Assembly: GCF_026151205.1 (NCBI RefSeq)
Contig: NC_087072.1
Span: forward strand, 19,055,103 to 19,119,102
DNA from: Bolinopsis microptera
Lineage: Eukaryota > Ctenophora > Tentaculata > Lobata > Bolinopsidae
Length of the DNA: 64,000 nucleotides
Reading direction: 5' to 3'
The notes below the pieces were generated by a model that was not told the DNA's origin, searched no databases, and worked only from the letters and a program-made list of their open reading frames with translations. Shown piece by piece: positions 9,100 to 50,641 of the stretch. The position numbers were made by a program, and so were the translations under genes. The number at the start of each line of letters is the position of its first letter. The stretch's first letter is position 1.

Positions 9100-12000
9100 T
9101 TACATTTGTTGAAGGGGATTGTTTTCAAATGACAGCTGCATTATGTCATAATCGCTTGAAGTCCATGCTGAATCATTATAAGCATGTTGCAGCTTTAGAA
9201 GTGCCTTTTTCAGGCGACTTTTAGCAAGGCTAATCTTGTAGGAGTAGTCAAAAAGCTTAAGTTTAGGTGCAATTGTGCTCCAGATTTTTGTGGATCTTGA
9301 TATGAAGTCATTAGATGGGAGTTGTGAAATGAGAGTGGTTTCCTTTCTAGAAGATGGCTGATAATGCTGTTGCAGTGATGCTGGGCACCTTAATTTCAGT
9401 ATTTTAAAAACTTCCATAAAAGTGTGATATGTATATAAATTTTTGAAAGCCAGGATGTTTTGTTGCTTGAAAAGTGGTTTACAGTGCTCTAGTTGGAAGA
9501 ATGTATGGTCAAGTGCCTGGCTGTCAAACTCTCTTGTTCTTGCACATGTTAGGAACTTGTTTAGGTATGCCTCTTTATCACCAAAGAGGACCCGTACGCA
9601 GTGCTTCTGAGACAACCAGATACTTGCTGTCCTAAAGAGTGCTGCATCACCCCAAACTGAGATACAATATGTAAGGTGGGATTCAAATAGTGTGTGGTAT
9701 AGGTCTTTATGGAGTTCCTTCGGTACAGAGTCCCTAATTCTATTTAAGGTGGCAGAGGCATAGTTTAACTTTCGTTTAAGTGCTGTTATATGAGGCCCCC
9801 AGGAAAGCTGTTCATCAATAACAACTCCAAGAAACTTTGTTGCTTTGGTTTTTTTAATTGGAAAGCCATCAATATGGAGTTGAAGCGAATCTGGAAATTC
9901 TACTGGTTTACTAGCCTTTGGTTTAAAATGCATATAACAGCACTTTGACATGTTGATGTGTAGTTTGTTAAGGATCATATACTTTTTTATACAGCTTAGC
10001 AATTTGTTGCCTTTCTCATAAGCTTCTTCTACAGTTTTGCCATTAATAAAAATGTTGGTGTCGTCGGCAAATAGTATGAAAGTTCCTAAATCTGAGGAAT
10101 TGGAAATATCATTTATGTATAGAAGAAAAAGGAGCGGTCCCAAAACAGAGCCTTGTGGAACTCCATATTTAATGATGAGGTTTTCGGATTTTTCATTAAG
10201 GACTTCTGTGTACTGTGTTCTATTTGATAAGTAGCTTTTAATGAGACAGTTTGCATTGCCTCTTATTCCATACCTATCTAGTTTTGTTAGGAGTGTACTA
10301 TGGTCGATTGTATCAAATGCTTTACTCAAATCTATAAATATTCCTAGAACATGGTTTCGTTTTTTTATGCTCTCTTCAATAATCCTAACAGAGTAGTTAA
10401 CAGCATGGCTAGTAGAATGGGACTTGCGGAATCCAAATTGGTTTTCATCAAGGATATTTTGTGACAAAGCGAAACTATAGATACGGCTGTATATCACTTT
10501 TTCAAATATCTTACCAAATATGGGCAGAGTAGAGACAGGTCTGTAGTTTCCTACATCCTCTTCGTTTCCTTTCTTAAATATAGGAGTAACTTTCCCAACT
10601 TTCAATACATCGGGAAATACCCCGCTCATCATCAGTTTATTGAAATGTTGGGCTAAAACAGGGCAGATTAGATGAGCTGACTTTTTGATCACACGGATTG
10701 GGATATCACTAGATTTGCCATTTTCCAGCTTGGAAATTATTTCCATGAGCTCAGTATGTGAACAGTCAGTTAGGAATATAGAGTTGTTGTTGGATGGCAG
10801 GAGGTAGTCTTCAAATGTTGAAAATTCAGAAGCCTGTATAGGCAGGTCAGCTATTGATTCATTTAGAGTGGAGGCAATGGAGTTAAAGTATTTGTTGAAC
10901 TCGTTTGCAATAACCCTTCTATCTGTTATTTTTCTGTTGTCGATTATAAATGAGGGTTTGATACCCTTTTTACACTTCCCTCTGAGTTCATTAATGATTT
11001 GCCATGTCTTCTTACGGTCGTGCTTATTTTCTATGATTTGGTTGCAAGAGTAAGTATTTTTTGCAGTGTTAATTACAGATTTGAGGATCCTTCGGTATAC
11101 CTTGAAGGTTTGCTCGAGATCCTGGTTTCCATCAGGGTTTGCCTTAGTTTTAGATGTAATCCAGGCATCTTTTAATTCATGTTTTTTTTCAACGGCTGAT
11201 GAAATACTATCTGTTATCCAGGGGTTATTGATAGGATTCCGTTTAGTAGTTTTTGGCTTTACAAGTTTGCATGTTGAATCAAGTACATGATCAAATAATT
11301 TAGTAAAATCCGAGAATTCATGAGAAGTGTGGAGCTTTGAGAGGTCAGTGTTCAGTAGGGTTAGGAATTTATTAAGGTTGGCATTGCTGAAGTCGTAGTA
11401 CTGGACATGTTTTTCACTTTTTGGACCAACCTCGAATTCGATGTCAGTGAATTCAAATGTTGGAGCATGGTCACCAATTCTATCTGTTATACAACCTGAG
11501 AGAACACAGTTACCAGGGTCATTTGTGAGGATGTTGTCAATACAAGATGGTTTGCAATTTGGTCTCTCATGTGTAGGTATCGAAATAACAGGAGCGAAAC
11601 CATTTCTAAATAAGCATTCTTCAAAAAGAGTATAGTTGCCATGACCAGCGTCACCATTCACTTTAAGAAGGTCAACATTAAAGTCCCCCATTATACGTAC
11701 ACCAGATTTAGGGAGGAGTTTACATATGTGATCAAATGACTTAAGGAAATTATGAATGTCACCATTTGGAGGGCGATAGATGACCCCTGAGATGAGTGTG
11801 AGCTTGCTGGATGATTGAGTGATCTTAACAAAGATTGATTCAATATCAGGCGTGCAGTAGCCAAGATTTTCTATGACTTCTGCATTAAGGTGATTTGCTA
11901 CATAGAGGGCAACACCAGTCCCTTTCAGCTTGTTTTCCTGAGTGACCTGATAAAAACTGTTGTATTGCGGTATTCTGTATAGTTCTTTAAGAGGTTCATC

Positions 12001-12495
12001 TGTGTTTGTTTCAGCGATACCAATTACAGAGAAATTTAGTTCAATTCGTTTGAGTTCAACGTTAAGACAATCGAAGTTGGTTTTGTTACCATCTAAGTTG
12101 ACAAAGTAGGATGTGAATTTTGAGTGTGTGGATGAAAGATTACATGAGTTTTGAAGTTCCTTGACTACCCTATTAAGATCAGCTGTGGAGTAGCTCTGAC
12201 ATTGGTCTAGAACATTCGAAATTTTTTGAATAGTTTCGTCATCACATCCACCTTCATCATCGTAGAATTTATCACCACCATCACTAATCATCCCAGAGAA
12301 GGGGTTGTAGCGTGGTATCACGTTCAGTGAACAAACCTTACATACCCATAGACCGTTGGTGGGGCAGAAACCAGCTACTTTAAAACATTTAGTATGAATA
12401 GCTGTCCGACAGGCTTCACATTCTAGTAGGGGCTGCCCAATGTTGATGGGCCTTGAGCATGGCTCACAGACCTCCTTAATTAATTTCATGATCAT
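9100..12495 (-). CDS. LINE-A ORF2: PHD-like finger, APE endonuclease and reverse transcriptase
   Basis: About 1,131 residues from the ATG at 12495. I chose this start because the eight zinc ligands (C10, C13, C26, C29, H34, C37, C52, C55) then fall at exactly the same residue numbers as in LINE-B ORF2. An upstream TTG gives a longer frame but is not a plausible eukaryotic start. After the finger come the APE endonuclease motifs (AETNT, YRPPNGD, GDFNVDLL, IGDHAP, so the catalytic D-H pair is present) and a CR1-type reverse transcriptase with GIFIDLSKAFDTIDH, GVPQGSVLGPLLF and the catalytic FADD at about residue 809. The product would nick target DNA and copy the RNA in place. No internal stop is seen, so this copy could be functional. 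Confidence 0.9.
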   Translation of the reverse strand: MIMKLIKEVCEPCSRPINIGQPLLECEACRTAIHTKCFKVAGFCPTNGLWVCKVCSLNVIPRYNPFSGMISDGGDKFYDDEGGCDDETIQKISNVLDQCQSYSTADLNRVVKELQNSCNLSSTHSKFTSYFVNLDGNKTNFDCLNVELKRIELNFSVIGIAETNTDEPLKELYRIPQYNSFYQVTQENKLKGTGVALYVANHLNAEVIENLGYCTPDIESIFVKITQSSSKLTLISGVIYRPPNGDIHNFLKSFDHICKLLPKSGVRIMGDFNVDLLKVNGDAGHGNYTLFEECLFRNGFAPVISIPTHERPNCKPSCIDNILTNDPGNCVLSGCITDRIGDHAPTFEFTDIEFEVGPKSEKHVQYYDFSNANLNKFLTLLNTDLSKLHTSHEFSDFTKLFDHVLDSTCKLVKPKTTKRNPINNPWITDSISSAVEKKHELKDAWITSKTKANPDGNQDLEQTFKVYRRILKSVINTAKNTYSCNQIIENKHDRKKTWQIINELRGKCKKGIKPSFIIDNRKITDRRVIANEFNKYFNSIASTLNESIADLPIQASEFSTFEDYLLPSNNNSIFLTDCSHTELMEIISKLENGKSSDIPIRVIKKSAHLICPVLAQHFNKLMMSGVFPDVLKVGKVTPIFKKGNEEDVGNYRPVSTLPIFGKIFEKVIYSRIYSFALSQNILDENQFGFRKSHSTSHAVNYSVRIIEESIKKRNHVLGIFIDLSKAFDTIDHSTLLTKLDRYGIRGNANCLIKSYLSNRTQYTEVLNEKSENLIIKYGVPQGSVLGPLLFLLYINDISNSSDLGTFILFADDTNIFINGKTVEEAYEKGNKLLSCIKKYMILNKLHINMSKCCYMHFKPKASKPVEFPDSLQLHIDGFPIKKTKATKFLGVVIDEQLSWGPHITALKRKLNYASATLNRIRDSVPKELHKDLYHTLFESHLTYCISVWGDAALFRTASIWLSQKHCVRVLFGDKEAYLNKFLTCARTREFDSQALDHTFFQLEHCKPLFKQQNILAFKNLYTYHTFMEVFKILKLRCPASLQQHYQPSSRKETTLISQLPSNDFISRSTKIWSTIAPKLKLFDYSYKISLAKSRLKKALLKLQHAYNDSAWTSSDYDIMQLSFENNPLQQM

Positions 12496-12508
12496 AGTAA
12501 TGTGTCGG

Positions 12509-14221
12509 TTAGGTTGGACCAGTGGATCCAACCCTCTGTGCTGACTCCCTAGACACCTTTTCCTTCAGAAACACACAGTTTTTCATGTGGCTTACAAACT
12601 TAGCTAAACCTCTACTTCCTAAGTGAATCATGTCGTTACCCCTAGTGAATTTAACAGATAATAGCTTATTGTTATCTAAAAAACCATACATACCCTGAAA
12701 CCAAATATTAGGAAAACAGTTCTTTATCATCTCCTGTACCAAGTTGTTGTAGAGCATTATATTTTTATTCATTTCATGGATTCTTGATGGTAAAACAGGT
12801 ACAACAAAAATGTTAGTAAGTGGACACAATTGACGTATTTCCGTTAGTTTATTCTTCAGTGTTGACACTGCCTCGTGGATATCTGAGACATTTTTTACGT
12901 TTTCGCAGCGTAGATCGTTGGTACCACACATAAGGAAAGCGTTGGAGAATCCAGCACACAGGTGTGGATTGATGTCTTTGACACGGGCAGCCTTTACTCG
13001 TTTACCAGGGAAGGAATGACCAACTTTACCTGTACCATCCCCAAAGTTGACATCTTTGGTATTCGAATCACCGATTAAAACGATGCTTCGTCGAGACTGG
13101 CTGCTGAGAGATCTGAAGGTGATCGAAAATCTCTCCTCTGTTGAGGTATCATCAGATAATTTTGGCACACCGTGGCGGTACCAATTTTGTGAAGACCTTG
13201 TCATGGTGTAAAGTGAGTTAGACTTCACATCAAGCTTAACAGGATCTTGGTCTCTGTCTTGTTTGGACTCAAAAAGCACAGTTCTAGTTGCACCAATGGA
13301 GATTGTGACAATTTTTGAGTTGGCAAGAATCGTGGATTCATCATCAGAATGCATAGCTAGGTAGCTTTGGGATGGGGAAAGTCTGTCTGAGGAAGGATAG
13401 TGGTTAATGAGGACCGAGTTTGGCTTGTGCTCGAGTTGTAGTTCTGAGGAGAACCTGTCAATAATAGAAACAAGTTCAGGTGGGATGGGCTCCTGTTGTT
13501 TAGGGGGCTGGGAACCAGTGTAGCTGTAGGACTCTCCATATAGCCGGACGCTGTGGCCATTCTCTTCAATGAAATCTCCAGAGTCCTTCAGATAACCTAA
13601 AAGGTCTCCTACACTGCTCAATTCCTCGTTTGTCAGATATAACTCTTTGTACTGCTCGTAAGGCTGTTCAGGACATTTTAGATTTCTTTTCGTGGGTGAT
13701 GGAGTAACAGGTCTAGGTTGTTCTTTGTAGTTAAGCTGAGGGGATGCATTTGCTCTTCCTTTAAACTCCTGAATTTCACTGTTAAGGTCGTCTAGGCGAG
13801 CATTCAGGGATGTTATGTCAATGCTCGGGATTGACCTTTCAATGCTTTCTTTAACTGATTCACTTATCTTCTGGAGCAATGAAGTTTCCAGGAGGGTGCT
13901 CTCGTTGAGTTGAACTGCTGTGGCACAGGTAATGGCTTCTTCAGCAAGAATTTTTTCTTTTTTAGCAGATGGGTGGTTCTTAGGCCTAGGAAAGATGCAA
14001 GTGTAACACCAGGGACATAGCCATTTTTGGCTGATGCAGTCTAAATCACTCTGGGAGAGTTTATTGGTACCAGGTAGATTACCGCAAGAGGCATGCCATG
14101 ATTGTTTACAGTCTGAGCACTGTATTACCCAGTCTTTTGTTTGCAATAATTTTATTTCAACACTTGATCCCTGTTCAGACATCTCTTTGGGGCAATAGCA
14201 TTTCCATTTCAGATATGTGCA
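12509..14221 (-). CDS. LINE-A ORF1: PHD finger, AlkB-like dioxygenase and SGNH hydrolase
   Basis: The frame stays open back into the TIR element. The first ATG is at 14182, but it would drop the first two PHD ligands, so the real 5' end is probably missing. Numbering codons from 14245: PHD finger ligands C16, C18, C43, C46, H51, C54, C77, C80 (about 16-80); a polar linker with a likely coiled coil (about 115-165); an AlkB-like Fe(II)/2-oxoglutarate dioxygenase (about 230-380) with H299-x-D301, H358 and R372-x-S-x-T-x-R378; and an SGNH hydrolase (about 388-560) with GDSN at 392-395, GTND at 441-444 and D538-x-x-H541. E. coli AlkB has H131, D133, H187, R204 and R210, at very similar spacing. 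PHD and esterase domains are known in CR1 ORF1; the AlkB domain is the unusual part. The stop lies 13 bases before the ORF2 ATG. Confidence 0.85.
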   Translation of the reverse strand, partial: CTYLKWKCYCPKEMSEQGSSVEIKLLQTKDWVIQCSDCKQSWHASCGNLPGTNKLSQSDLDCISQKWLCPWCYTCIFPRPKNHPSAKKEKILAEEAITCATAVQLNESTLLETSLLQKISESVKESIERSIPSIDITSLNARLDDLNSEIQEFKGRANASPQLNYKEQPRPVTPSPTKRNLKCPEQPYEQYKELYLTNEELSSVGDLLGYLKDSGDFIEENGHSVRLYGESYSYTGSQPPKQQEPIPPELVSIIDRFSSELQLEHKPNSVLINHYPSSDRLSPSQSYLAMHSDDESTILANSKIVTISIGATRTVLFESKQDRDQDPVKLDVKSNSLYTMTRSSQNWYRHGVPKLSDDTSTEERFSITFRSLSSQSRRSIVLIGDSNTKDVNFGDGTGKVGHSFPGKRVKAARVKDINPHLCAGFSNAFLMCGTNDLRCENVKNVSDIHEAVSTLKNKLTEIRQLCPLTNIFVVPVLPSRIHEMNKNIMLYNNLVQEMIKNCFPNIWFQGMYGFLDNNKLLSVKFTRGNDMIHLGSRGLAKFVSHMKNCVFLKEKVSRESAQRVGSTGPT

Positions 14222-14223
14222 AA

Positions 14224-14980
14224 TAGTAGAGGCTCTTACGGGCAAAAAGGCGTGTTTTCTGCTACGAGTTTAGAGACCTAACCGCTAATTGGACACAATA
14301 TTATGATGTCTAAGGATCGATAATATGTAAAGAAGCAATAAGATCACATTATTTTCTATTTGGTGTGAAAATATGATCTAGAACATAATCTCGCTGAGTT
14401 ATAGCTGTTTGAAATTTATGATGAACGCGCGGGTGCCAATTGATAACAACTAAATGCTTTTGCGCGTAGTGCGCGTCGAAAATTTGGCAAAAACGCTTGC
14501 GGAGTGACAATATTCAAACTTCGATAAAGTATATGAAGTGGGTGCTTCTCGGAAACGAAAAATTTAGGCGAACACGATGAAACTATTTTTGGGTTGATTT
14601 AATACAACTGCAAAAAATTATTCAAACTTCAAGCAAAAAAGTCAAAATTTTTACCACTTTTTTGGATTTTTACCCCAGAAAAAATAGATAAGAGGGATTT
14701 GTTTTATTTTTATACCATCTTGTGCGGCTGTCTTTCAGCTATCTCCATGCAAATTTTGCCGACATGCCAACAAAATTAACTTGCTCAAAATATCAAAAAA
14801 CATGGTTTTTTGGCCTATTTTTGGCCCAAAAATCGGTTTTTTGCGATTTTAACCCAGAAAAATCAGTCCAATCATCTTGAAACTACTTTTAATCGATTCT
14901 ACGGTCAAAAATACGTCTAGTAAGGTGTATCTGGGGTCCCTAGCGTATTGAGCAGACAATGCCCGTAAGAGCCTCTACTA
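14224..14980. mobile_element. 757-bp TIR transposon, non-autonomous, family T1
   Basis: The ends are perfect inverted repeats of 21 bases: TAGTAGAGGCTCTTACGGGC at 14224 and its reverse complement ending at 14980. If the outer TA is the target duplication, the TIR is 19 bases. There is no coding frame inside. A second, one-ended copy at 19948-20396 shares the first ~330 bases and holds about 110 internal bases missing here. The element abuts the 5' side of LINE-A ORF1. TA target use suggests a Tc1/mariner-type mobiliser, but that is inference. Confidence 0.85.
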
Positions 14981-19559: not shown

Positions 19560-20955
19560 CCTCCTGTGGGCCGCGCCGCGCATCAAATAATTCTTCTCGC
19601 AATTTTTCGGTAGATCGGCGAAATGCACCACTGGGCCTCGCCGAGCTGCGAAGGATTGACATCCTGAATCAACTTTGTTGTTTGTTCATTGTTGCTACAT
19701 GAAATTTGTATTTGATTGTGTTCTACCGATTGTATCAATTGCCATTTAATTATAAGTAGTTTGAATGCAAATGACATTTTCCTCACTTATTTATTTATTT
19801 TTAAACTGGAACCCTTCCAGGGCTTACATTAAAAACAAAAAGTGTTTTAAATGTTTATTTTTAGCGGCCCAATTTGACGAACGCGAATGCAATGTTACTT
19901 GTTTAAATTTTTTCAAAGTTGCGCACCGCTTTCTTCTCGAGGCAATATAGTAGAGGCTCTTACGGGCAAAAAGACGTGTTTTCTGCTACGAGTTTAGAGA
20001 CCTAACCGCTAATTGGACACAATATAATAGTATGATGTCTAAGGATCGATAATATGTTAAGAAGTATAAATTTGGCCTTATTAGTCACGTGCTATACCAA
20101 TGCCGATGCGCGTTTTAAACTTTGACAGTCTATTACTCTAAGGCAAATAGAGTAATTATATTCATATTTTGTCAGCAATAAGATCACATTATGTTCTATT
20201 TGGTGTGAAAATATGAGCTAGAACGGACATAATCTCGCTGAGTTATAGCTGTTTGAAATTTATGATGAACGTGCGGGTGCCAATTGATAACAACTAAATG
20301 CTTTTGCGCGTAGTGCGCGTCGAAAATTTGACAAAAACGCTTGCGGAGTGACAATATACAAACTTCGATAAAGTATATGAAGTGGGTACTTCTCTAATAT
20401 TTACGAAATAGTGCGTGCTGCATGCTAGTCAATTAACAATGAACGACAGCCCAGTGTTTTCGTGAACTAGAAATAAATTGACCTTCCGCTCAACTATCAT
20501 CAATCGTTTAATTTGTTGCAAGATGCATTACTGGAACAGCGAAATATTCCACACTGCACACTGGGCCACGCCGAGCTGCAAAAGATTGACATCTTCAATT
20601 AAGTTTACGAATAATACTCGTTTAAATATCTTCGAAGAACAAAGTCAAAAGTAGCGGCGTAGCGCGCGCTGCTTTCTTCTCAAAATTTTAACCCGAGACA
20701 ATGATCCGAAAAAGTTCGGCGAGATGCGAAGGATAAACATTGTGAATTAAGTGCAAGGGCTTTAAATAGAGCAACGATCGTTGCTTTGACAAAATCGTAT
20801 ATGCTCTGTTAATTTGCGGCCGGCAACGATTTGGAAGGGTCGACATGATCGTCAATCAAAACGGTTGTAGCGCTATGCCCTAGTGGGCCGCGCCGCGCAT
20901 CCAATAATGCTTATACAGATCGGGAAATGCAAAGGATTGACATCGTGAATCAATC
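19560..20955. repeat. Dispersed decayed repeats around GCGAAGGATTGACATC
   Basis: A short motif resembling GCGAAGGATTGACATCCTGAAT occurs near 19650, 20571, 20724 and 20926, always in the same orientation. It is often preceded by TGGGCC(G/A)CGCC and an initial CGAGCTGC-like word. Part of it also appears at about 15305-15325. The spacing is irregular (920, 150 and 200 bases), so these are separate relics of one interspersed repeat and not a tandem array. No coding frame accompanies them. Confidence 0.5.
19948..20396 (+). mobile_element. One-ended copy of TIR family T1
   Basis: Begins with the same TAGTAGAGGCTCTTACGGGC end as 14224 and stays alignable to about 20396, after which the two copies diverge. 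It contains about 110 bases (roughly 20060-20170) absent from the copy at 14224-14980. No second TIR is found nearby, so the right end was lost. Confidence 0.8.
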
Positions 20956-23048: not shown

Positions 23049-23886
23049 GGCCACAGGGGGGGGTCGAGGCCTCAAAAAATGCAAAAAAACATTATGCTTT
23101 GAATCAATATATATTTTTGTGGTGGATACTTTGCCACCACTCATTTGTCTGTAGCTATTTTACTTTTTTTTATAAATGAGGTTAACCAATTCTCATTTAA
23201 CCTCATTTTTTTGATAAATCGATAATGGAGGGCAGAAATATTGATGCCATTACAACTGAAAACTACGATAAGCTTTGTTTTTATTGTTTTTGTGTTATTT
23301 CAGCAGTTAAACTTTGAAAAATATACAAATAAAGGCAAAATTTTCAAAAATCACATAACATAAAAAACAGTTTTTTGCCTCTCCTGAAAACCTCGAATTT
23401 TTGACTTCAAAATCTATCTTCTCCTAGAGTTTTTATCCATTTCACCTCAAATTTGGAACTTATGTTCCTGACATAAATTTAAAAGTTTGTTATGTAACGA
23501 TTGTTGTAATTTTGCTCCTAACTCTTTTTATGAGGTTAACCATTTTAAATTTTGTAACCAGCACTCATGGTTAACCTCATATCTCAGCTTTGGAGCAAGA
23601 TATTATAAATCGTTACATAACAAAAACTCAAAATACCTTGAAGAACATTGTTGCCAAGTTACAAGGTTCTAAGTCATAAACTGAAAAAGAAGATAGATTT
23701 TGAACACGATTTCATTTAAAGTTTTCATTTACAATAGAATTACAGGTAAACCTCAAAATTCAACGCGCGATATCTTCAAATAGGAAACTTTGTTTTCGGT
23801 AAGGACAAAAGCATTTGAAAATTTAGATCGAGCTCTACAACATATCTCAAAATCTCAAAATCGACCTCGGACCCCCCCCTGTGGCC
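23049..23886. mobile_element. 838-bp TIR transposon with TTAA target, inside LINE-B ORF1
   Basis: Flanked by TTAA on both sides (23045-23048 and 23887-23890). Ends are inverted repeats beginning GGCCACAGGGGGGGGTC. Joining the flanks with a single TTAA restores a continuous frame in the LINE-B ORF1 (GTLDFNSFVDEDG), which supports the boundaries. Inside are two perfect hairpins built on TGAGGTTAACC: 12-base arms at 23174-23185 and 23197-23208, and 14-base arms at 23530-23543 and 23567-23580. No transposase frame. TTAA use is piggyBac-like; the terminal bases are not the usual CCY, so the assignment is tentative. Confidence 0.85.
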
Positions 23887-23890
23887 TTAA

Positions 23891-24116
23891 TAGCTTTGTT
23901 GACGAAGATGGTCTGCTGAATCAGCAGTTTTGTAGATATAAGAAGCCGGATGACCCAATTCACCTTGGATCAAACGGTATATTCAAACTCTCCCGGGCTT
24001 TTGCTCACAAGATATTTGGTAGCCCTGTTGACGGGAGATCATTCAGTGATGTTGTTAATGCCAAAGCTAGAGGCAGATTTTCCCCACGACCACGTAGATC
24101 TATACTTCAGTCATGA
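23891..24116 (+). pseudogene. LINE-B ORF1 remnant: end of the SGNH hydrolase domain
   Basis: Encodes the C-terminal ~75 residues of an ORF1 like that of LINE-A. FVDEDGLL matches FLDNNKLL, and DPIHLGSNGIFKLSRAF carries the D-x-x-H catalytic pair of the SGNH fold. The 5' part continues left of the inserted transposon to about 22997, where the element is truncated. The stop overlaps the ORF2 start as ATGA (24113-24116). Confidence 0.75.
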
Positions 24117-27100
24117 TAGTTAGATTGATATGCGAAATTTGCTGCTGCTGCAATAAACCTGTACGAGCTGGACACCCTTTCATAATTTGTCAGATGTGTG
24201 ACAAAATAATGCACAAAAAATGCAAAACTAATGACAACATAGTCAAATTTCGAGATGAAATATACTGCAAAGTCTGTATTGAAGCCAACGATATTATTCG
24301 ATACAACCCTTTCTACCAAGCTCCCCACTTTGCTAACAACGGCCTTATTGATGATGAGCCAGTTAATTATATTGAATCTATCTACAACAGCTCAAAAATT
24401 CTTGAAAACTGCAAAACATTCTCCATAACAGAGTTGAATGCCACCACCCTGCCTGGAAATTCAGTCGAATATATGTCCACTTTATTCCTCAACATTGATG
24501 GGAATGCAACAAACTTTGACAACTTTGCAGTTGAGCAGTCTAGTATAAACCACAAGTTTTCTGTTATTGGTCTTGCAGAAACAAACACTGATGCTGACAA
24601 TGGAACACTATATCAGCTTAGTGGATACTCCTCGTGTTACCAATCCCGTTATTTCTGTCAAGACAAAAACCAGTTCAAGGCTAAAGGATCAGGAGTTTGT
24701 CTTAACCTGAAAAACTCTCTAAACTTTAATAAGATTACTGGATTATCTCTCTGTAATGAGCACATAGAATCACTGTTTGTATCTATCACCAGTATGAAAG
24801 ACCCAACCGTTGTAGGGGTTATCTACCGTCCTCCAAACGCATCACTTGAACTGTTTAACGAAGCATATGAACGTATTCTCTCTAAACTGAATGGCAAGAA
24901 GGTATATATCCTTGGGGATTTCAATGTTAACATTTTAAACCACCCATCTTCATCAGAGGACAAATTCCAAGAAATAATATTTAACAATGGCTTTATACCA
25001 ACCATATCAGTGCCAACTCACCATATGCCTGGTTGTTCCAGGACTTGTATTGACAATATCCACACCAATGTATTAGACCAATCCCTTATCTCTGGTGTCA
25101 TATCTGACAAGATCTCCCATCACCACCCTATATTCACTTTTGTTAAGCTTTCCCCCGACTCTGTGTCACTATCTGATTCACCAGACAAAATTACTATACA
25201 CTACGACTATAGTAATGCTAACCTAGAGAAGCTCTGTCTTGAAATAGAAAACGATTTGGATATGTTCCACTACAGTTGTGACACATTTGACTCTTTTATG
25301 CAGCTATTTCAAGAAAAAATAGACTTGTCTTGCAAACTTCCAACTCCAAGAACCACTAAACGTAATAGCATAACCAACCCTTGGATTACCCAGGGCCTAA
25401 TTAATTCCATCGAGAAGAAAGCTAGATTGTATTTCGAATGGAAAAAGACTTGTACATTAAAATTACCTGACGGGGATCCGAATAAGCACATTTGCTACAA
25501 GGAATTCGACAAGTTTCTCAAAAGCTCAATAAATATGGCAAAGGCTATGTGCTACACTAGAAAATTCGAAAAGTACAGCATGAACTCTAAAAAGACGTGG
25601 GAAGTTATTAATGAACTCCGTGGTAAAACTATGTCTCGATGTAAGGACGATTTTGTCATAAACGGTCAGAGAGTTACCTGCAGACGAATAATTGCTAACA
25701 AATTTTGTGAATACTTTACATCTCTTGCAAGTAATCTCAATAAAAATGTACTGTCGAACAATAGTATTTCTCTGGAACCAATTGAATCATTTGCTCAGTT
25801 CATGTCAAATTCAGTATCTGACTCCATTTATCTGGAAGAAACTAATAAAGACGAGATCATTGAGGTGATCAAAGATTTTCAAAATGGCAAGGCGAGTGAC
25901 ATACCAATAATTGTTGTAAAGAAATCATCAAAGCTTATAGCTGGTACCTTGGCCAGGCTTTACAACACATGTATACAAAGTGGTACATTCCCGACTATTT
26001 TTAAAACTGGTAAAGTTATTCCTATTTACAAGAAAGACAATAAGGAATGTATCGAAAACTATCGGCCTGTATCAATATTACCTTTATTTGGAAAAATTTT
26101 CGAGAAGATCATTTACAAACGGCTCTATAATTTCTTCACATCTAAAGGTGTACTGACAGACTCACAGTTTGGATTTAGAAAAGGTCATTCCACCACTCAT
26201 GCTCTACACAAATCTATAGACTCCGTTACAAAGACTCTAGCTGGCAATAAACATGTCTTAGGAATATTCATTGACTTAAGCAAAGCCTTCGACACCCTTG
26301 ACCACAACATTCTTCTAAGCAAATTAAACTCCTATGGTATTAGGGGCACAGCACTTACCTTACTTAAAAGCTATTTGACTAACAGAAAGCAGTATGTTAT
26401 GTATAACGATGTACCATCAGAAACACTGGATGTGAAATTTGGGGTACCACAGGGGTCAATTCTAGGGCCGTTACTTTTCCTACTGTATATGAACGATATA
26501 GTGAACTGTTTTTCTGACAGTGAGGTGAAATTTGTACTTTATGCTGATGACACTAATATCTTTATATCAGGACCATCTAGAGAAGCAACATACAAAAAAG
26601 CAAACTTAGTTCTTAAACATGTGTCGATTTACATGAAATGTAATCTACTCCATATCAATATGTCTAAATGCTGCTACATCCATTTTAAACCTGCCTCTGA
26701 ATATGATGAGACCTGTGCAAGGACCAGACCATTTGCTAACCTACTAGATGAGTCTAGGTCAATATTCATCGATGGTAAGGTTATTACTAAAGTCAAGGAT
26801 ACCAAATTCCTAGGTATTGTTATAGATAGTAAGTTAAACTGGGCTGCCCATATGCACTACATTCGTAAAAAACTTCGGTCCATGACTGGTGCAATCTGTA
26901 GAATTCGACACTCGATACCTGGTGAACTATATTTGAAAATATATAATGCTCTCTTTGAATCACATCTCAGTTATGGTATAAGTGTCTGGGGCGTTGTCCT
27001 TAAAGAACGATCAAATGACAGTCTTTTTATCACACAGAAGCACTGTGTAAGGATCCTTTTTGGTGATCTCGACTCATATTTAGATAAACAATCAACATGT

Positions 27101-27517
27101 GCACGTACTAGACCGTATGGTATGCAAAAATTAGACCATAAACACTTTGAAAAGGAGCATACAAAACCCATTTTTAATAGACTAAAAATTCTAACGGCTC
27201 AAAACTTGTACAAATATCACTGCATTTTAGAATTCTCTAAGATTATCAAGTACCACTGCCCCTACTCCCTTTATGAGGCCATCAACATTTCAAACCGTGC
27301 AACGAGTCTAACTGTTATTCTTCTAAATAAATCAAATACCTTTTTGTTTAATGCAGCCAAGCTTTGGAACACAGTTCATAAAAAAATTTTAACTTCAAGC
27401 AATTGCCTAGAAACTTCCATTAACTTGATAAAATTGAGAACCAAAGCACTATTAGTACAATCACAGGCAGCTGACTTAAAAGATACCTGGACTCCAACCA
27501 ATTTTAAATTGCAGTAA
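24113..27517 (+). CDS. LINE-B ORF2: PHD-like finger, APE endonuclease and reverse transcriptase
   Basis: 1,134 residues, no internal stop, ATG overlapping the ORF1 stop by four bases. Zinc ligands C10, C13, C26, C29, H34, C37, C52 and C55 are numbered exactly as in LINE-A ORF2. Endonuclease motifs AETNTD, YRPPNAS and GDFNVNIL are present. The motif that should read S/G-D-H reads S-H-H (H336 in place of the catalytic Asp, codon at 25118), so cleavage may be impaired. The reverse transcriptase has GIFIDLSKAFDTLDH, GVPQGSILGPLLF and YADD at 810-813. The C-terminal domain ends with the short thumb/C-terminal region usual for CR1. The frame looks young; the Asp to His change is a single base. Confidence 0.9.
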   Translation: MIVRLICEICCCCNKPVRAGHPFIICQMCDKIMHKKCKTNDNIVKFRDEIYCKVCIEANDIIRYNPFYQAPHFANNGLIDDEPVNYIESIYNSSKILENCKTFSITELNATTLPGNSVEYMSTLFLNIDGNATNFDNFAVEQSSINHKFSVIGLAETNTDADNGTLYQLSGYSSCYQSRYFCQDKNQFKAKGSGVCLNLKNSLNFNKITGLSLCNEHIESLFVSITSMKDPTVVGVIYRPPNASLELFNEAYERILSKLNGKKVYILGDFNVNILNHPSSSEDKFQEIIFNNGFIPTISVPTHHMPGCSRTCIDNIHTNVLDQSLISGVISDKISHHHPIFTFVKLSPDSVSLSDSPDKITIHYDYSNANLEKLCLEIENDLDMFHYSCDTFDSFMQLFQEKIDLSCKLPTPRTTKRNSITNPWITQGLINSIEKKARLYFEWKKTCTLKLPDGDPNKHICYKEFDKFLKSSINMAKAMCYTRKFEKYSMNSKKTWEVINELRGKTMSRCKDDFVINGQRVTCRRIIANKFCEYFTSLASNLNKNVLSNNSISLEPIESFAQFMSNSVSDSIYLEETNKDEIIEVIKDFQNGKASDIPIIVVKKSSKLIAGTLARLYNTCIQSGTFPTIFKTGKVIPIYKKDNKECIENYRPVSILPLFGKIFEKIIYKRLYNFFTSKGVLTDSQFGFRKGHSTTHALHKSIDSVTKTLAGNKHVLGIFIDLSKAFDTLDHNILLSKLNSYGIRGTALTLLKSYLTNRKQYVMYNDVPSETLDVKFGVPQGSILGPLLFLLYMNDIVNCFSDSEVKFVLYADDTNIFISGPSREATYKKANLVLKHVSIYMKCNLLHINMSKCCYIHFKPASEYDETCARTRPFANLLDESRSIFIDGKVITKVKDTKFLGIVIDSKLNWAAHMHYIRKKLRSMTGAICRIRHSIPGELYLKIYNALFESHLSYGISVWGVVLKERSNDSLFITQKHCVRILFGDLDSYLDKQSTCARTRPYGMQKLDHKHFEKEHTKPIFNRLKILTAQNLYKYHCILEFSKIIKYHCPYSLYEAINISNRATSLTVILLNKSNTFLFNAAKLWNTVHKKILTSSNCLETSINLIKLRTKALLVQSQAADLKDTWTPTNFKLQ

Positions 27518-28194
27518 TTAAATTGCACATGCAGCAGCACACACCTAATATTACTATCATGATTGAACTATAAGCTGATAAGCTTTCAGATCCATTTTTA
27601 ACCACTTGATGTAATGTTTTTAATAATTAAATATTTTATTTTACAAATTTATATCAGATCGAACCTACATTTGATAATCGAACCTATATTCGATAATCAA
27701 ACCTGTATTCGATAGTTAAATTTATGCGATAAATTGATATTGATATTATTATTGTTGAATGAAGTTAACTCCTGAGATAAATTTTATTAATTTTTTAACA
27801 AAGGGACTTGGAGTATAAACGACCAAGTTCGCATAAATGATTGATTGATTGAGGAGCACTACCCGAAGGCATTACTCGGCACTAACGCCTTAAAATCTTT
27901 AATTACAATCAAATATAAATATATGCACACAATGTATAAAGTATTAATAATGTATAAAATATGATTATGCTATTAGCAAATTTAAATAGTACTATTAAGA
28001 ATTTTAAATAACTCTTATCTCTTGACATAAATTTAGAACAGCGACACAGGGTCTGAAGAATGCGCGGTGATATTTTTATCTTTTAAAAGTTGTAAATGAC
28101 AGTGAAATTGCGCGGTGTCGATAGCATTGTAAAAAAAAAAAAATGCTCGAAGATAGTCATATTTTGTTATGAGGTTAAAGTTTTGTTGCTCGTT
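27518..28194. other. LINE-B 3' UTR and spacer
   Basis: The LINE-B 3' UTR runs to the GATT tail at about 27853. From there to 28194 the sequence is AT-rich with no recognised feature except a run of A at about 28129-28142. A frame in this spacer happens to run into the truncated RLE-LINE at 28195, adding about 33 unrelated codons. Confidence 0.55.
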
Positions 28195-34051: not shown

Positions 34052-37000
34052 TTAAATTTCTAAAAGTACGAAATTTGAGTTGTCCCAGTCCTTGTCATCC
34101 GGTTTATGTGCTTGTGCAGTAAGCACATGCTTGTTGACTGTAGACTTGAATGAATTTAGGAATTTGTCTTGTAGGCAAGTGGTGACATATTTTATGTCCT
34201 TGTTAATAATGTTGACTGTTTGGTTATATAACTTAGGCCCAATGTAAGAAATGCTCTTGTCTGAATTACATAAACGGTTAAATGGTACTGCAAAGAACTC
34301 AGGTTCTCTTCTAGGTGCGTTTAAGTTTGAAACAGTGAACATTCTTATAATATTTGGTGGTGCAGTGTTAGAATAAACTTTGTGCATTAAGCATAATATA
34401 CATTTAGCTATCACGTTCGGTAAAGCTAATACTTCAAGTTTATTGAAAATTTCCTTTGTGTGTGAAGGTGTGCTATTCAGATCTTTGTCATAAAAATAGC
34501 GGTGGTATTGGTTATCTGCAGCGCGAATGCCCTTTTTCTGGGCCGAGAAGACTCTTTTAACGGAGTTTAGCGATCTTGTTCCCCAAACTGTGCAGCAGTA
34601 GTACAAGTGAGACTGAACAAAGCTGTTGTATATCAACTTGAGTGCTTTGTTAGGTACTGAGCCTTTGAGTTTGTAGAGAATACCCGCATTTCTAGATACT
34701 TTAGTGGCTAAATGTCTAATGTGGTGGGCCCAATTTAGCTTAGTATCAATGATCACGCCAAGAAACTTTTCGTGATAACTTTGCTTTAGTCGCTCACCTC
34801 CCATGTAGATTTCTATATCCTTAGTTTTTTTATTTGTAAAGATCATATATTTAGTTTTGCTAGCATTTAATTTAAGCCCGTTATTAGTAGCCCAATCAAT
34901 TATCAAAGTCAGAATCTCATTCACCAATGCATTAAGTTGTTCAAATGTATCTGTACTTATTATTAGGTTTGCGTCGTCAGCGAAATAAATATGTTTAGCT
35001 AAATTACTAATCTGAGGAAGGTCGTTGATGTAGATTATGAACAGAATTGGTCCGAGAATGGAGCCCTGTGGTACTCCGTAGTTAAGTTTGAGGTGAGAGG
35101 ACTTGCAGTTGTTGACGCTCACGTATTGCTCTCTATCGGTTAGATATGAGTGAAACCAAGATAAAGCCAACCCCCGAACTCCATAGTGCTCAAGTTTTCT
35201 CAGAAGAATACTGCTGTCAACCATGTCAAAGGCCTTGCTGTAGTCCAATAGAAGCAGTGCTGTGACCTGCTTTTTTTCTAGTGCCCTGTGAATATGGTTT
35301 TGGGCTTCTAGTAAAGCATGTTCGCAGCTGTGCCCAGCCCGAAATCCGTATTGAGAGTCAAATAGGATTTTCTCTGTCTTTAAGTGATCTAATAGTCGCG
35401 CTTGCATAATTTTTTCAAAGATTTTTGAGAAACATGAGAGTAGTGAGATAGGTCGATAGTTTGAAACTTCAGCACGTGACCCACCTTTGTGAAGTGGAAC
35501 TACTTTCGCGATTTTCAATTTATGCGGAAACTTCCCCTGATGTAGAGACGCAGAGACTAGGCAGCTAAGCACTGGTGCAAGTATATTGCTCACTTTTTTC
35601 AGGGGAAGTATACTCATATCAGAAGTCGACTTAATCTTCAAACCCTTAACTATTTCAATTATTTCTGATGCGGACGAATCTTCTAGATTCATGCTCCGCT
35701 GGCATTTGCTATCTTGAGTTTCTGTTACGATAGTCCTGCCCTCAGAGCATACGAGACCATTTTCTCTCTTAAGAGTCTCAGCTATATTGCAGAAATAGTC
35801 ATTGAAGCTATTCGCAATTTGCTGAGAATCTGTTATCTCGCTCCCATTATAGTTAATTTTGTTTATCTTAATTTTGCCTTTTTTTTTCTGTTTAACAAGT
35901 TATTAACCATTTGCCATTGTTTTCTGCTGTCGCTAGAATATTTTGTAAAGTACGCGTTGTAATATTTGTTTTTGGCCTTATCCACGTGTTTATTCACAAA
36001 TTTCTTCATTTTCTTGTACCTAATATCATTTTCAGTGGTCGGGTTTGTGACAAAATCTTCATAAAATTTATTTTTGCGATCACATGCGCACCGTAACCAT
36101 TCTTGGATCCACGGCTTTGTGTTTTTACGGCGGCCTGGTTTACTCTTTTTTGCCTTAATTGGGAAATTTCGGTCGTATAGTTCACTATATTTTTTATCGA
36201 AAGCCTCAAATTTTTCATCTACAGAATCATAGTTATTAACCAAGTTCCAGTCTACCGCAGAAATGTCGTTCTCGAACTTTTGGATACTGTCATCGTTTAT
36301 TACTCGAGAAGACATTTCTGTTGTATCTTCTTGAAGTTTACAACTGAGCCTATTCTGATCAACCATGATTGTGACAAAAGTTGCCAAGTGGTCAGAGATT
36401 GACTCAGAAATTACTCCCGATTTTGTAACAGCGTGGCAATTATTGACGAAAATATGGTCAATGATTGTCGCACTGTGATCTGTGACTCTAGTTGGTCTAG
36501 ATATCACAGGAGCGAACCCATGCTCTGCTAGAGTGTCCACATACTTAGTGACAGAGTCTATTCTCCCGTAATCTAGTAGGTCTATGTTAGTATCACCGGC
36601 CAGTATGATATTTTTGTTTCGATGTCTTGCTAAGTTACGGAGGAAAATTTTTAATTGTTCAAGGAAACCATTCAAATCTCCACTTGGAGAGCGATATATA
36701 TTACATATTAACGCGTTTTTGTGCCCTTTCAAGGTAAGTTCTGCAACCAAGAATTCTCCTATCTTAGGATTATCGTGGCAACATAGAGCGCTCTTAACGT
36801 TTATGTCAGATAATTCACATAGTTTTTTGTTAACATATATAACTAATCCTCCACCACGATTTGACGCTCTGGCGGGAGTCTGAACATACGGTGGATAGAA
36901 ACCGTCTAGTTCGAGCTCCTCTCCCTGAAAAGGCAAACATTCCGTGTTACAATTTGTTTCATTGAAGCAGAGAACGTCGTATTTTGTGTATTGATCTATA

Positions 37001-37662
37001 TTCTCCCGAAATTCTTCAATGTTCCCATTAAGTGACCTAACGTTTAGCGAGAAAAGTTTTAATTCATACTCCTTCGTATTTTTTATTGCTTTCGCGGTAT
37101 AGTATTTGCAGTTATTTAGAAGACTAGACGTTGTTTCCCATGGATTCAAATCAGCATCAGTATCATCACGATCACCTATTTGATTTGATAGGTGGTCGCG
37201 ATTAAAGGGGTTAAACCTAATAGTGTTACTGAGATTTATCATGTGAAGCTGTCTAATGGAGACATCATATGCTGGGAAAATTTTTCTCAAGCATTCTTTG
37301 CAGCCTGTTGAGCCAGCAGAACATCTTGTGTGAGATAGGTTGTCACAGTAGCAACATTTGGTCATTTGTCTTACATTCCCAATTTTTGTGCAAGTGTGAC
37401 ATTTTTCTCGTTTATTGGAGACTGGGATTTGTATAGGCCGTGATGGTAATAGAGGCATGACGGCGCCCACTGGAAGAATTTCTGAAATGCAGCTGTAGCA
37501 AGACCATTCTCCAGTAAGTTCAGTTATGTCGCTAGGTGTTAGGTGAGCACATTTTGGGTGATATGTCATATAACAGATACTACAAGTGATGCTTATCTTG
37601 TGTGAGACTAGGCGCTTTGTACAGGCCTTACAGCTATTTTTACTATTTCGGATAACTACCAT
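34052..37662 (-). pseudogene. LINE-D ORF2: two PHD fingers, APE endonuclease and reverse transcriptase (one frameshift)
   Basis: ATG at 37662. First finger C11, C14, C27, C30, H35, C38, C55, C58. A second Cys/His finger follows (CHTC...CCYC...HTRC...CKEC). The endonuclease has LNVRSLNG, FNETN, IYRSPSGD, AGDTNIDLL and SISDHLATF, so the catalytic residues are present. The frame ends at about 35863, soon after a run of nine A (35879-35887). The next frame is open through the A run without stops into the RT (YRPISLLSCFSKIFEK, DYSKAFDMVD, GVPQGSILGPILF, FADD near 34980) and the stop at 34052. Either one base was lost from the run, or the ribosome is meant to shift there; see the separate entry. 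All motifs are otherwise intact. Confidence 0.85.
35879..35887 (-). other. Run of nine A at the LINE-D ORF2 frame break (A AAA AAG heptamer)
   Basis: In the upstream frame the minus strand reads AGA AAA AAA AAG, which contains a slippery A_AAA_AAG. A -1 shift after AAG leads into exactly the frame that carries the reverse transcriptase. No strong stem-loop is evident just downstream, so loss of one A (mutation or base-calling) is the simpler explanation. Confidence 0.55.
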
Positions 37663-38150
37663 TTTTTTTGGCTGTAAATGATACTCTTGTTTAAATGTAG
37701 ATATAGGTTTGCTACTGTATATTAATATATAATAAAGTACACGGAAAAAACAGTTACTGAAAGTATCTACTCCAGATGAGTGAGCCAAGAAAATGGGGCC
37801 AGGGAAGAGTGAGAAAACGTGCGAGGTTTTGTGAACACTCTGTCCGGGTCCCTAACTTCAGCTCCTAACTAGAGAAATCAATTCAGTTAAGTGTTATTCT
37901 GTGGGAATAAGTTTAAAAAGTTAATTGAAGTATGTGAAATGTGAATGTGACTTGTATTCTGTATTTGTAACTTGTAAGTGTATGTACTTAGTGGTCTGAT
38001 TACGTGATTCAAATTAGTAAAGATAAGATTTCGATTAGCCGTAAGCTGGTGCAGATAAGACATGGTTCGTATACTGTACGATTCTTAGTATAAGATTAAT
38101 AATTATGTCCAAATTTTCGATGTAGTATGTTTGTATATTGTATTGCTGTT

Positions 38151-39887
38151 CTAAGGTCTGCCCAATGAAGAAACATACTCCCGTCTTAGCGGCCAGTGTT
38201 TTCGAATTAAGTAGCTGCGCCCCATAAATTCTTTGACACAGGTAGCAAGAGAGCGAGCTATCTCTCTCTTGGACAGTACTGTTAGGTGGATTCCGTTTCC
38301 ATCAGGATCTACAATGACCTCTCTTCTCTGGTATAAAACAGTACAAATATGGTGCGAGTCAAAGAACCATAGCTTGGACACTCTATTGCTTAGTTCAAAA
38401 ATAAAACTGTTAAAAAGCTTAACCTCCTCATTAAGCCACGAGAAACGTGTGAGAACTAAAGAATTAAATATAAAAGTCGTGTTAGGATATTTCTCAATTA
38501 GATAATCAATATTTCTTTTAAAATCACATGAAAGGGAGTGGTGGTGGTGGTCATAGCGAGATAAATCGTTTATACCAGAAGAAATTATGACAATTTTAGA
38601 GCCAGAAATATACTGTTCGTGATCTAAAATTTTGGATAACTGGTACATTTCGCGTTTGATGCAGTGTACGTTAGGAAGGTCGAAAGGAACATCTCTGAGA
38701 AGCGAGTCCGTCAAGAATAATAGACGCTCCTTAGGTTGAGACTGCTCAGTAACTGTAGGCTTATGAATCGGTTCGTGGATCCTCGGGATTTTTTTGCGAG
38801 GGGGGATATTCTGAGAGAGGCGTCTGAACGTAAGCGATATTCTGCAGTCCTGAGTTTCTGGTTGTGGCAATATACCATGCTCCCAGAAATTCTGTGATTC
38901 ACGTGTCATCACATACACACATCCATGATCAAGTTTGTGGATCTGTTGTTTGACCGGACCGACTTTGCTACGAAATACCAGGTCTCTAGAAGCCCCAAGA
39001 CTGAGTGTAATGATGTCACCAGTGACCTCATTTTCATCATCACTGTGGAAGGGTATATGGCACTTGCCGTTTTCATATTTGGTGATTAGACAAGTTACCT
39101 GCTCCTTATTAAACGTAGGGTCATCTAATGCATTCGAAATGTTTGTAAAAATGTGGTCAATAACGGAGTTCTGAGGATAGTTTCTGGCATGATGCACGGT
39201 TGACCCATAGCGGTAATCTGTTGCTCCGAAGTACTGTACGGATCGGGATGCGATTCTGCGGAAGTTCATGCCCTTGCAGATGTCCATCCAATTAATGTCA
39301 TTAAAGTTCACACTTAGATTACATACCGGAGTAGGTAGAGCTGCGGAGGGTGAGCTGATTACTAACTGTGGTTGGGCTGGAGCAGAAGGGAGTGCGCTGT
39401 TTCTGACGCAGTCTGCGGTTGTTCTCCGAACTTCTGTCTTGTAGTCCTCTAGTGTTGTTTCTGCCTTCTCCAGCAAACCGGAAAAATGGTTCATTAACGA
39501 ATCTATTTTAGCGACATCTACCGTAAACGAATTGATAAAGTTAGCATTTTTACAATCGTTCTCCAGTTTTTGTTTCAATAGAACTTTACGTTTTGAAGTC
39601 TTAGTGTTGGATTTAATCCCTAAATCAATTCCCAGTGAATTGTTGTACGATATTTCGTGCGCCATGTGCTCGTCCTTAACGTGCTCGAACAGATCGAGAC
39701 ATAGTTTAGGTGACAGGGTAGGAAGCCACTGTCCAAAAGTTATGTCTGTTTGAGTACTAACGCACATACCGTGTGTGGTAGGGGTTGCCAGGCAGTGTTC
39801 TGTAGAGGTAGTGGTATGGGCACCACTACCTGGCAGCCCGGAGTCCGAAGAGATGATGTCCATATTAGGAGTTGGTTGGATGTACAT
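38151..39887 (-). CDS. LINE-D ORF1: AlkB-like dioxygenase fused to SGNH hydrolase
   Basis: 578 residues from a true ATG, uninterrupted. Residues 1-160 are polar with a possible coiled coil (about 120-160) and no PHD finger. Residues about 205-360 are AlkB-like: SVQYFGATDYRYG, then H281-x-D283 in PFHSDDENE, a TLSLGASRDLVFRS strand, H337 in WEHGIL, and R349-x-S-x-T-x-R355. The spacing H281 to H337 (56) equals that of E. coli AlkB (H131 to H187). Residues about 388-560 are SGNH-like: LTDSLL (Ser395), SGIND (438-441) and NGIHL, where Asn531 stands at the usual Asp position before His534. So the dioxygenase motifs are complete while the esterase triad may be altered. About 490 bases separate it from ORF2. 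Confidence 0.83.
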   Translation of the reverse strand: MYIQPTPNMDIISSDSGLPGSGAHTTTSTEHCLATPTTHGMCVSTQTDITFGQWLPTLSPKLCLDLFEHVKDEHMAHEISYNNSLGIDLGIKSNTKTSKRKVLLKQKLENDCKNANFINSFTVDVAKIDSLMNHFSGLLEKAETTLEDYKTEVRRTTADCVRNSALPSAPAQPQLVISSPSAALPTPVCNLSVNFNDINWMDICKGMNFRRIASRSVQYFGATDYRYGSTVHHARNYPQNSVIDHIFTNISNALDDPTFNKEQVTCLITKYENGKCHIPFHSDDENEVTGDIITLSLGASRDLVFRSKVGPVKQQIHKLDHGCVYVMTRESQNFWEHGILPQPETQDCRISLTFRRLSQNIPPRKKIPRIHEPIHKPTVTEQSQPKERLLFLTDSLLRDVPFDLPNVHCIKREMYQLSKILDHEQYISGSKIVIISSGINDLSRYDHHHHSLSCDFKRNIDYLIEKYPNTTFIFNSLVLTRFSWLNEEVKLFNSFIFELSNRVSKLWFFDSHHICTVLYQRREVIVDPDGNGIHLTVLSKREIARSLATCVKEFMGRSYLIRKHWPLRREYVSSLGRP

Positions 39888-42413: not shown

Positions 42414-50641
<8,228 letters not shown>

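Follow-up and report, generated by a model that had tools for sequence, protein, structure and literature searches.

The window analysed here, a stretch of 64,000 nucleotides from the ctenophore Bolinopsis microptera (RefSeq assembly GCF_026151205.1, contig NC_087072.1, forward-strand positions 19,055,103 to 19,119,102), contains a long interspersed nuclear element (LINE), here called E1, whose first open reading frame (ORF1) carries an AlkB-family dioxygenase domain between a PHD-like finger with its linker and an SGNH-like esterase domain (Table 1). The dioxygenase is recognised by the Pfam family PF13532 with 82.3 bits against a curated cut-off of 31.2, and the E-value of 7e-23 rules out a chance motif; a single-sequence search of PDB gave human ALKBH2 (best E 1.5e-4) and human ALKBH3 (best E 2e-4) over the same stretch. 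The initial annotation of E1 had read an AlkB-like dioxygenase from the motifs H299-x-D301, H358 and R372-x-S-x-T-x-R378, and we found these residues in the translation exactly as it gave them (H299, D301, H358, R372, S374, T376 and R378), together with E303. Presumably, H299, D301 and H358 bind iron, and the arginines R372 and R378 contact 2-oxoglutarate (2OG). The proposed order PHD, AlkB, SGNH holds as well, with PHD and SGNH matches that stay below the Pfam cut-offs; S394, N443 and H541, the residues that mark SGNH proteins, are all present with their motifs. Behind ORF1, ORF2 encodes a reverse transcriptase (RT; RVT_1, 1.7e-38) and a weaker endonuclease match (PF14529, 2.1e-5, 24.8 bits, under the cut-off of 27.4), which identifies E1 as a LINE. 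A separate host AlkB gene beside the LINE was rejected as an explanation, since the AlkB domain shares its reading frame with PHD and SGNH and recurs in many copies.

The 578 amino acids of E1 ORF1 are counted from a TTG at 14245 that lies inside a foreign insert. This TTG is not E1's own start, because ORF1 adjoins, at its 5' end, an element of 757 bp that is bounded by perfect terminal inverted repeats (TIRs) of 21 bp; a partial second copy of this TIR element is located 5 kb away, at 19942-20394. Another copy of the same ORF1 type (L069) is 96.4% identical to window positions 12062-14138 over 2077 bases and holds PHD, AlkB and SGNH within one frame of 727 amino acids, the first part of which resembles a piece of another LINE's RT. 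With an RT-like beginning in L069 and an inserted one in E1, the true ORF1 start can be read from neither copy.

Table 1. Features of the three related LINEs and of the insert in the window (E-values and bit scores from Pfam)
Feature	Position	Strand	Basis
E1 ORF1, type F1: PHD-like, linker, AlkB, SGNH-like	12509..14245	-	ORF translation and Pfam
E1 PHD finger	14006..14137	-	PF00628, E=5.3e-4, 20.4 bits against a cut-off of 24
E1 AlkB-family Fe(II)/2OG dioxygenase domain	13112..13540	-	PF13532 (2OG-FeII_Oxy_2), E=7e-23
E1 SGNH/GDSL-like domain	12566..13084	-	Lipase_GDSL, 2.6e-3, 18.4 bits against a cut-off of 23.6
E1 ORF2: PHD-like N-terminal finger, endonuclease, reverse transcriptase	9100..12531	-	Pfam
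757-bp element with 21-bp perfect TIRs, abutting the 5' end of E1 ORF1	14224..14980	.	
E2 ORF1, type F2, 578 amino acids from ATG: AlkB, SGNH-like	38151..39887	-	Pfam
E2 AlkB domain	38823..39224	-	PF13532, 1.8e-20; H281, D283, H337, R349, R355
E2 SGNH-like region	38280..38726	-	Lipase_GDSL_2, 2.2e-3, under the Pfam cut-off
E2 ORF2, piece 1: PHD-like finger and endonuclease, frame broken ahead of the RT	35863..37788	-	
E2 ORF2, piece 2: reverse transcriptase	34052..35692	-	
Third related LINE: ORF1 3' remnant and ORF2 (24113-27517)	23784..27517	+	

The E1 domain has many relatives in the genome, which was searched as 264.65 Mb in 232 contigs, with 97.5% of the bases in 13 contigs of 15-26 Mb. 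The PF13532 profile gave at least 151 matches (the best 150 of 587 candidates scored), and the E1 AlkB domain as query gave at least 150 (the best 150 of 718). Only 15 rows are common to both sets; their union of 285 rows corresponds to at least 283 loci when pieces less than 1 kb apart are merged, three of which were recognised as ordinary ALKBH genes, and some others are fragments. No stop codon falls inside the match in 149 of the 150 best profile rows and in 144 of the 150 best rows of the E1 query. The genomic context was read in a chosen sample of 20 stretches, each roughly 10 kb long (L021-L040), 20 short AlkB regions (L041-L060) and 8 RT regions selected by estimated distance (L061-L068). 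Transposons make up all but three of the 20 longer AlkB regions (17/20), so that the 'expanded AlkB families' counted in such genomes may be transposon counts. AlkB relatives were also sought in viral contigs, where none was found.

The LINE-borne AlkBs of this sample were sorted into 13 ORF1 types, F1 to F13, and an RT follows downstream on the same strand in every one of them (F12 has a broken frame, and F13 is partial). E1 belongs to F1, and F2 is represented in the window by a second element, E2, absent from the initial annotation, whose AlkB domain (PF13532, 74.5 bits against 31.2) is 29% identical to that of E1 and is preceded by no Pfam match in the N-terminal part of ORF1. A third related LINE in the window has an RT about 50% identical to those of the F1 group and falls into the same RT-tree group as E1; of its ORF1, no more than the 3' end is left, which by eye closes like an SGNH domain, and AlkB was not found within its 23784-27517. 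Among the six ORF1 types that were scanned as a whole (F1-F6), F1 and F6 have a Pfam PHD match. The junction of AlkB and esterase is constant in F1, F6, F7, F9, F10 and F11, where the GDSN motif of SGNH block I follows exactly 13 residues past the last AlkB arginine; in F5, AlkB is followed by weak coiled-coil-type matches and, in two of four copies, by a weak match to SGNH. Four F3 copies (L027, L011, L012 and L013) share identical first bases within unrelated flanks and are thus separate insertions, and three more (L018, L016 and L010) start nearby, with shorter or diverged ends; identity to L027 is 98.8-99.6%, with one piece at 97.3%.

We found the same enzyme domain in a second, unrelated class of transposons. 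Seven Helitrons of the sample carry AlkB (L025, L028, L030, L032, L034, L037 and L038). Three of them (L025, L032 and L034) encode SGNH, AlkB, DUF6570, Helitron_like_N and a PIF1 helicase, in this order, in a single ORF, L038 has the same parts split over two adjacent ORFs, and the other three align to these four at the DNA level. SGNH was matched in six of the seven (the exception is L037), and no PHD was found by Pfam in the AlkB Helitron ORFs scanned, even at E<=0.1. Conversely, an AlkB locus lies within 8 kb of 9 of the genome's 41 rows matching the Helitron replication protein (Rep), which represent eight elements, seven with a full Rep; about 0.017 per Rep would be expected by chance. 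All seven full Helitron_like_N domains share an ORF with AlkB or sit in the adjacent one. The other 32 Rep rows have no AlkB nearby, so only part of the genome's Helitrons carries it. Canonical Helitron termini are 5'-TC and CTRR-3'; five of the copies have a common 5' boundary and unrelated flanks, with no obvious canonical TC start. In both classes, accessory modules seem to have been swapped onto near-identical replication halves: the F4 copy L033 and the F3 copy L027 are 99.4% identical in ORF2 over 2114 bases, with ORF1 proteins of only 55% identity, and the Helitrons L034 and L025 hardly differ over Rep and helicase and have diverged over the SGNH-AlkB half.

The transposon AlkBs resemble the cellular enzymes ALKBH2 and ALKBH3. 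A subtype profile built from 15 of them and searched against PDB (E<=0.01) matched human ALKBH3 (7e-31) and ALKBH2 (5e-26) best, followed by ALKBH8 (7e-16) and E. coli AlkB (8e-12); a demethylase of N6-methyladenine in DNA (6mA; 3e-4) and ALKBH1 (7e-3) were weak matches, and no ALKBH5 or FTO chain was among the 42 matches. This narrows the candidate substrates somewhat: the transposon AlkBs are ALKBH2/3-like, the type that acts on 1-methyladenine (m1A) and 3-methylcytosine (m3C), and not ALKBH5/FTO-like, the type that acts on N6-methyladenosine in RNA (m6A). An m6A-type AlkB was set aside on this evidence. The 15 representatives share 20-34% identity with the ALKBH2/3 domains of the host and of humans, and AlkB representatives are 19-70% identical to one another (median 28%), across which the H, D, E, H, R, T and R positions are invariant in all 43 unique domains (40 from transposons, 3 from host genes). 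These domains come from the top-scoring matches and were cut out with a pattern in which the catalytic motif is obligatory, apart from one host domain, which was delimited by its Pfam coordinates.

Substitution ratios argue that this conservation is due to selection. We computed dN/dS (the ratio of nonsynonymous to synonymous substitution rates, omega) of the AlkB domain for 17 pairs, which are not independent, as some share a copy, and one of which (F2/F13) is saturated; 14 of the 16 pairs with a value lie between 0.05 and 0.31. Between E1 and L069, omega is 0.44 for PHD and linker, 0.19 for AlkB and 0.16 for SGNH. Along ORF1 of F5, in which dS exceeds 1 in some windows, omega is 0.02-0.09 in the AlkB windows, 0.28-0.34 both in the first 75 residues and in residues 301-450, and 0.09-0.20 in the C-terminal part. 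In two Helitron pairs, omega is 0.10-0.33 in windows of the AlkB core, 0.22-0.51 in SGNH windows and mostly 0.4-1.3 in the linkers, and one window at 1.05 overlaps the AlkB end. Judged by these ratios, both the AlkB enzyme and the SGNH domain are maintained by purifying selection.

The trees unite all transposon AlkBs of the sample, with a support of 88/79 without an outgroup and 75/73 in a tree rooted on E. coli AlkB, an outgroup that consists of one long row. Support improves to 99/95 and 93/94, respectively, when F5 is left aside. The best tree keeps F5 with the other transposon AlkBs, and its placement with ALKBH3 is not rejected, with a p-value of 0.19 in the approximately unbiased test (p-AU); F5 may represent a second, independent AlkB capture. 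The host gene L021 is an ALKBH2 (100/98; rooted tree 99/99), and L022 and L023 group with ALKBH3 (91/87; rooted 96/93).

Large groups of LINE types recur in both the AlkB and the RT trees: F3, F4 and F8 (RT 99/99; AlkB 83/94 to 88/91), F1, F6, F7, F9, F10 and F11 (98/99 in the RT tree, with the third LINE of the window; 94/93 to 99/99 in the AlkB trees, with the Helitrons), and F2 with F13 (RT 99/97; AlkB 95/96 to 97/99, F12 included). The RT placement of F12 is weak (74/73), and the two kinds of tree disagree on the branching inside the large group. These common groups speak for a long joint descent of AlkB with the LINE lineages. The Helitron AlkBs nest among those of LINEs, beside F1 and F11 (95/95, 94/96 and 95/95); a LINE-only clade without them is weakly rejected (p-AU 0.039), and their grouping with host genes more clearly (p-AU 0.011). 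The Helitron branch is long, which makes the donor uncertain.

Other features of the window and the genome are recorded here as side observations. At 28096-33865, a different RT ORF is present twice, one copy next to the other and with recurring letters in the C-terminal parts. It has an N-terminal motif that resembles a zinc finger and, in the C-terminal part, a PDIVVW...LIELT stretch. The latter recalls a restriction-like endonuclease, and these ORFs may belong to an R2-type LINE. About 61 copies of the 11-bp unit TCACAGTGTAG occupy 45911-46583. From a sharp onset near 58115, one strand is nearly free of C over 58120-64000; from 58501 onwards, every 500 bases contain 2-9 C. Long stretches rich in T, then in G and then in T again make up this part, the GC skew is mostly above +0.9, and the sequence looks bisulfite-like, or as if it were an array of low complexity or an artefact of the assembly. 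Elsewhere in the genome, EF-hand photoprotein-like ORFs stand in tandem arrays on several chromosomes, and one such protein of 207 amino acids (L070, G000:C1:22000200-22001000) matches the ctenophore photoproteins berovin (1.1e-123) and mnemiopsin (4.6e-121), which by itself marks the host as a ctenophore.

The sequence gives good support to the claim that E1 has a nucleic-acid dealkylase of its own: ORF1 shows the PHD-AlkB-SGNH arrangement with its catalytic residues intact, and the AlkB domain is under purifying selection. The initial annotation had tentatively tied this enzyme to target-primed reverse transcription; a role limited to that step is too narrow because Helitrons carry AlkB as well. 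We propose that the domain removes polymerase-blocking m1A and m3C from the single-stranded intermediate of its element, an idea suggested by sequence comparison in which we place about as much trust as doubt. In LINEs, the ORF1 protein would coat the element's RNA, and its AlkB domain would oxidatively remove methyl lesions of the Watson-Crick face (m1A, m3C) before target-primed reverse transcription; left in the template, m1A and m3C would stop the reverse transcriptase at this step. In Helitrons, AlkB would remove such lesions from the single-stranded DNA that rolling-circle transposition produces. LINEs and Helitrons are otherwise unrelated, their common denominator would be a single-stranded nucleic-acid intermediate, and the clearing of lesions is the simplest reading we found that fits both carriers. 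The two other ORF1 domains would act as tethers of the particle: PHD would hold it at chromatin and the esterase would attach it to membranes, roles that have been proposed for ORF1 proteins elsewhere. Binding to phospholipids and liposomes is described for the SGNH esterase in the ORF1 of a fish LINE (PMC3905857). m1A and m3C are reported to arise in single-stranded nucleic acid and to block polymerases, and both ABH2 and ABH3 act on them, ABH2 with a preference for double-stranded DNA and ABH3 for single-stranded DNA and mRNA (PMC11431407). That the AlkB of a transposon can demethylate RNA has been measured in orchid Gypsy elements (PMC9289625).

Several observations weigh against this proposal or against single parts of it. 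In E1, neither the PHD nor the SGNH match reaches the curated Pfam cut-off. The catalytic positions were compared in domains extracted by motif, and degenerate copies are therefore under-represented among the 43. As to selection, the highest omegas, 0.88 for F12 and 0.40 for F13, come from 8 and 7 changes, and the value of 0.31 rests on 2 changes. The kinship of the enzyme is less sharply drawn than the subtype profile suggests: 8 of the 15 representatives are more identical to human ALKBH2, 6 to ALKBH3 and 1 equally to both, and E2 by itself matches human ALKBH2 best (2.8e-9, against 4.5e-7 for human ALKBH3). An earlier tree without an outgroup put the transposon AlkBs beside ALKBH3; in the rooted tree, neither their placement with ALKBH3 (p-AU 0.442) nor that with ALKBH2 (p-AU 0.446) is rejected. 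A closer kinship to ALKBH3 than to ALKBH2 would thus follow from the profile E-values only.

Other functions of the domain have to be weighed against the removal of lesions. A PHD-recruited AlkB could oxidise 5-methylcytosine (5mC) or 6mA in DNA copies or cDNA of the element, which would in this way escape the DNA methylation of its host. Retrotransposons elsewhere are described to carry DNA methyltransferases (PMC5890265), ABH2 and ABH3 are reported to oxidise 5mC in vitro (PMC11431407), and some 5mC is reported from ctenophores (PMC8141815); moreover, a PHD-like finger lies within the AlkB ORF of E1, and a double-strand preference like that of ALKBH2 would be compatible with the rooted tree. 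In the profile search, however, the E-values of ALKBH3 and ALKBH2 are better than those of the 6mA demethylase and of ALKBH1 by over 20 orders of magnitude, and PHD is matched in only two of six ORF1 types and in none of the scanned Helitron ORFs, which makes this anti-silencing function unlikely. We consider it rather improbable that the domain strips m6A from the RNA of the element, so that m6A readers of the host neither destroy nor retain it, a role proposed for the AlkB of orchid Gypsy elements. Such an eraser would leave the Helitron copies unexplained, since Helitrons transpose without an RNA intermediate, and the HxDxE motif of the transposon AlkBs, along with the lack of an ALKBH5 or FTO match at E<=0.01, also speaks against it. 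What recommends it is the precedent of an orchid Gypsy AlkB whose demethylase activity was measured (PMC9289625).

Two further explanations dispense with catalysis. The AlkB domain might be the nucleic-acid-binding part of ORF1, in place of an RRM, CCHC or Tnp22 domain; an RNA-binding part is thought necessary in ORF1 proteins, and none of these three domains was found by Pfam in the AlkB ORF1s scanned. Yet metal and 2OG ligands that stay invariant at such low overall identity would be needless for binding alone, and we regard a binding-only role as improbable. A functionless fragment of a host AlkB that is merely carried along would agree with the gene capture reported for Helitrons, such as that of a fish SGNH gene (PMC4021074). 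This explanation is largely refuted, and we give it hardly any credence: AlkB is under purifying selection, large groups are common to the AlkB and RT trees, and nearly all of the best-scoring matches are free of stops.

We put forward the following history tentatively, with doubt slightly outweighing belief: an ancient LINE may have captured an ALKBH2/3-like enzyme, which became a regular component of ORF1, was kept through at least 13 ORF1 types and later passed from a LINE into Helitrons, as a single-strand repair kit common to both. If this is true, methylation or alkylation damage to the bases of transposition intermediates would be a real obstacle to transposition, and an enzyme against it would be worth keeping; it becomes testable whether m1A and m3C limit reverse transcription in vivo. 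Two unrelated transposon classes would be joined by one accessory enzyme.

Several components of this system are already known, namely an AlkB in a retrotransposon, PHD/esterase ORF1s, SGNH with fish Helitrons, and accessory enzymes shared across classes. Ty3/Gypsy elements of the orchid Phalaenopsis encode an AlkB-family m6A RNA demethylase that is active in vitro (PMC9289625), and thus resemble E1 as retrotransposons with an AlkB-family dioxygenase. According to that report, however, the orchid enzyme is of the ALKBH5-like m6A type and is encoded in an extra ORF of a plant long terminal repeat element of one lineage, whereas here ALKBH2/3-like AlkBs lie inside the ORF1 of animal LINEs and in Helitrons, in many lineages and at many loci; the carriers we read were LINEs and Helitrons, and not Ty3/Gypsy elements with an ALKBH5-like AlkB. 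Plant RNA viruses (Flexiviridae and others) also have AlkB domains, presumably for RNA repair, and are likewise parasites with an AlkB of their own, but they are RNA viruses and not transposons.

The combination of PHD and/or esterase in ORF1 was reportedly described for the CR1/L2 group by Kapitonov and Jurka in 2003. E1 shares with this group such an ORF1 and an ORF2 with endonuclease and RT (PMC4120745, PMC3905857), and its likeness to CR1/L2 lies in the PHD/esterase ORF1 alone. For 448 elements of the Jockey superfamily, Table 1 of PMC4120745 gives as ORF1 domains PHD, RRM, CCHC, Tnp22, coiled coil, zinc finger/leucine zipper and esterase; that table contains no AlkB or other dioxygenase. 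In fish, Helitrons have captured an SGNH hydrolase (texim), an association that recalls ours; the term AlkB is absent from the available text of PMC4021074, and in B. microptera SGNH and AlkB precede DUF6570, Rep and the PIF1 helicase. GDSL and DEDDy ORFs are common to several classes of bdelloid retroelements, for which the available text of PMC5408684 has no AlkB; there the sharing is among retroelements, and here it spans a retroelement and a rolling-circle DNA transposon. The term AlkB is also absent from PMC12221973, PMC11184263 and PMC12695648, and no report of AlkB in LINEs or Helitrons was found among the top-ranked titles and abstracts of the open-licence PMC literature, a search that did not extend to Repbase and Dfam. 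The cellular ALKBH3 and ALKBH2 give the best profile matches and agree with the enzymes described here in the HxDxE motif and in the residues that bind metal and 2OG; the latter enzymes differ in being transposon-borne, fused to PHD or SGNH, present in many copies and only 20-34% identical to the cellular domains. To judge from the literature searched, what is new is the presence of an ALKBH2/3-like AlkB both in the ORF1 of LINEs and in the Helitrons of one genome.

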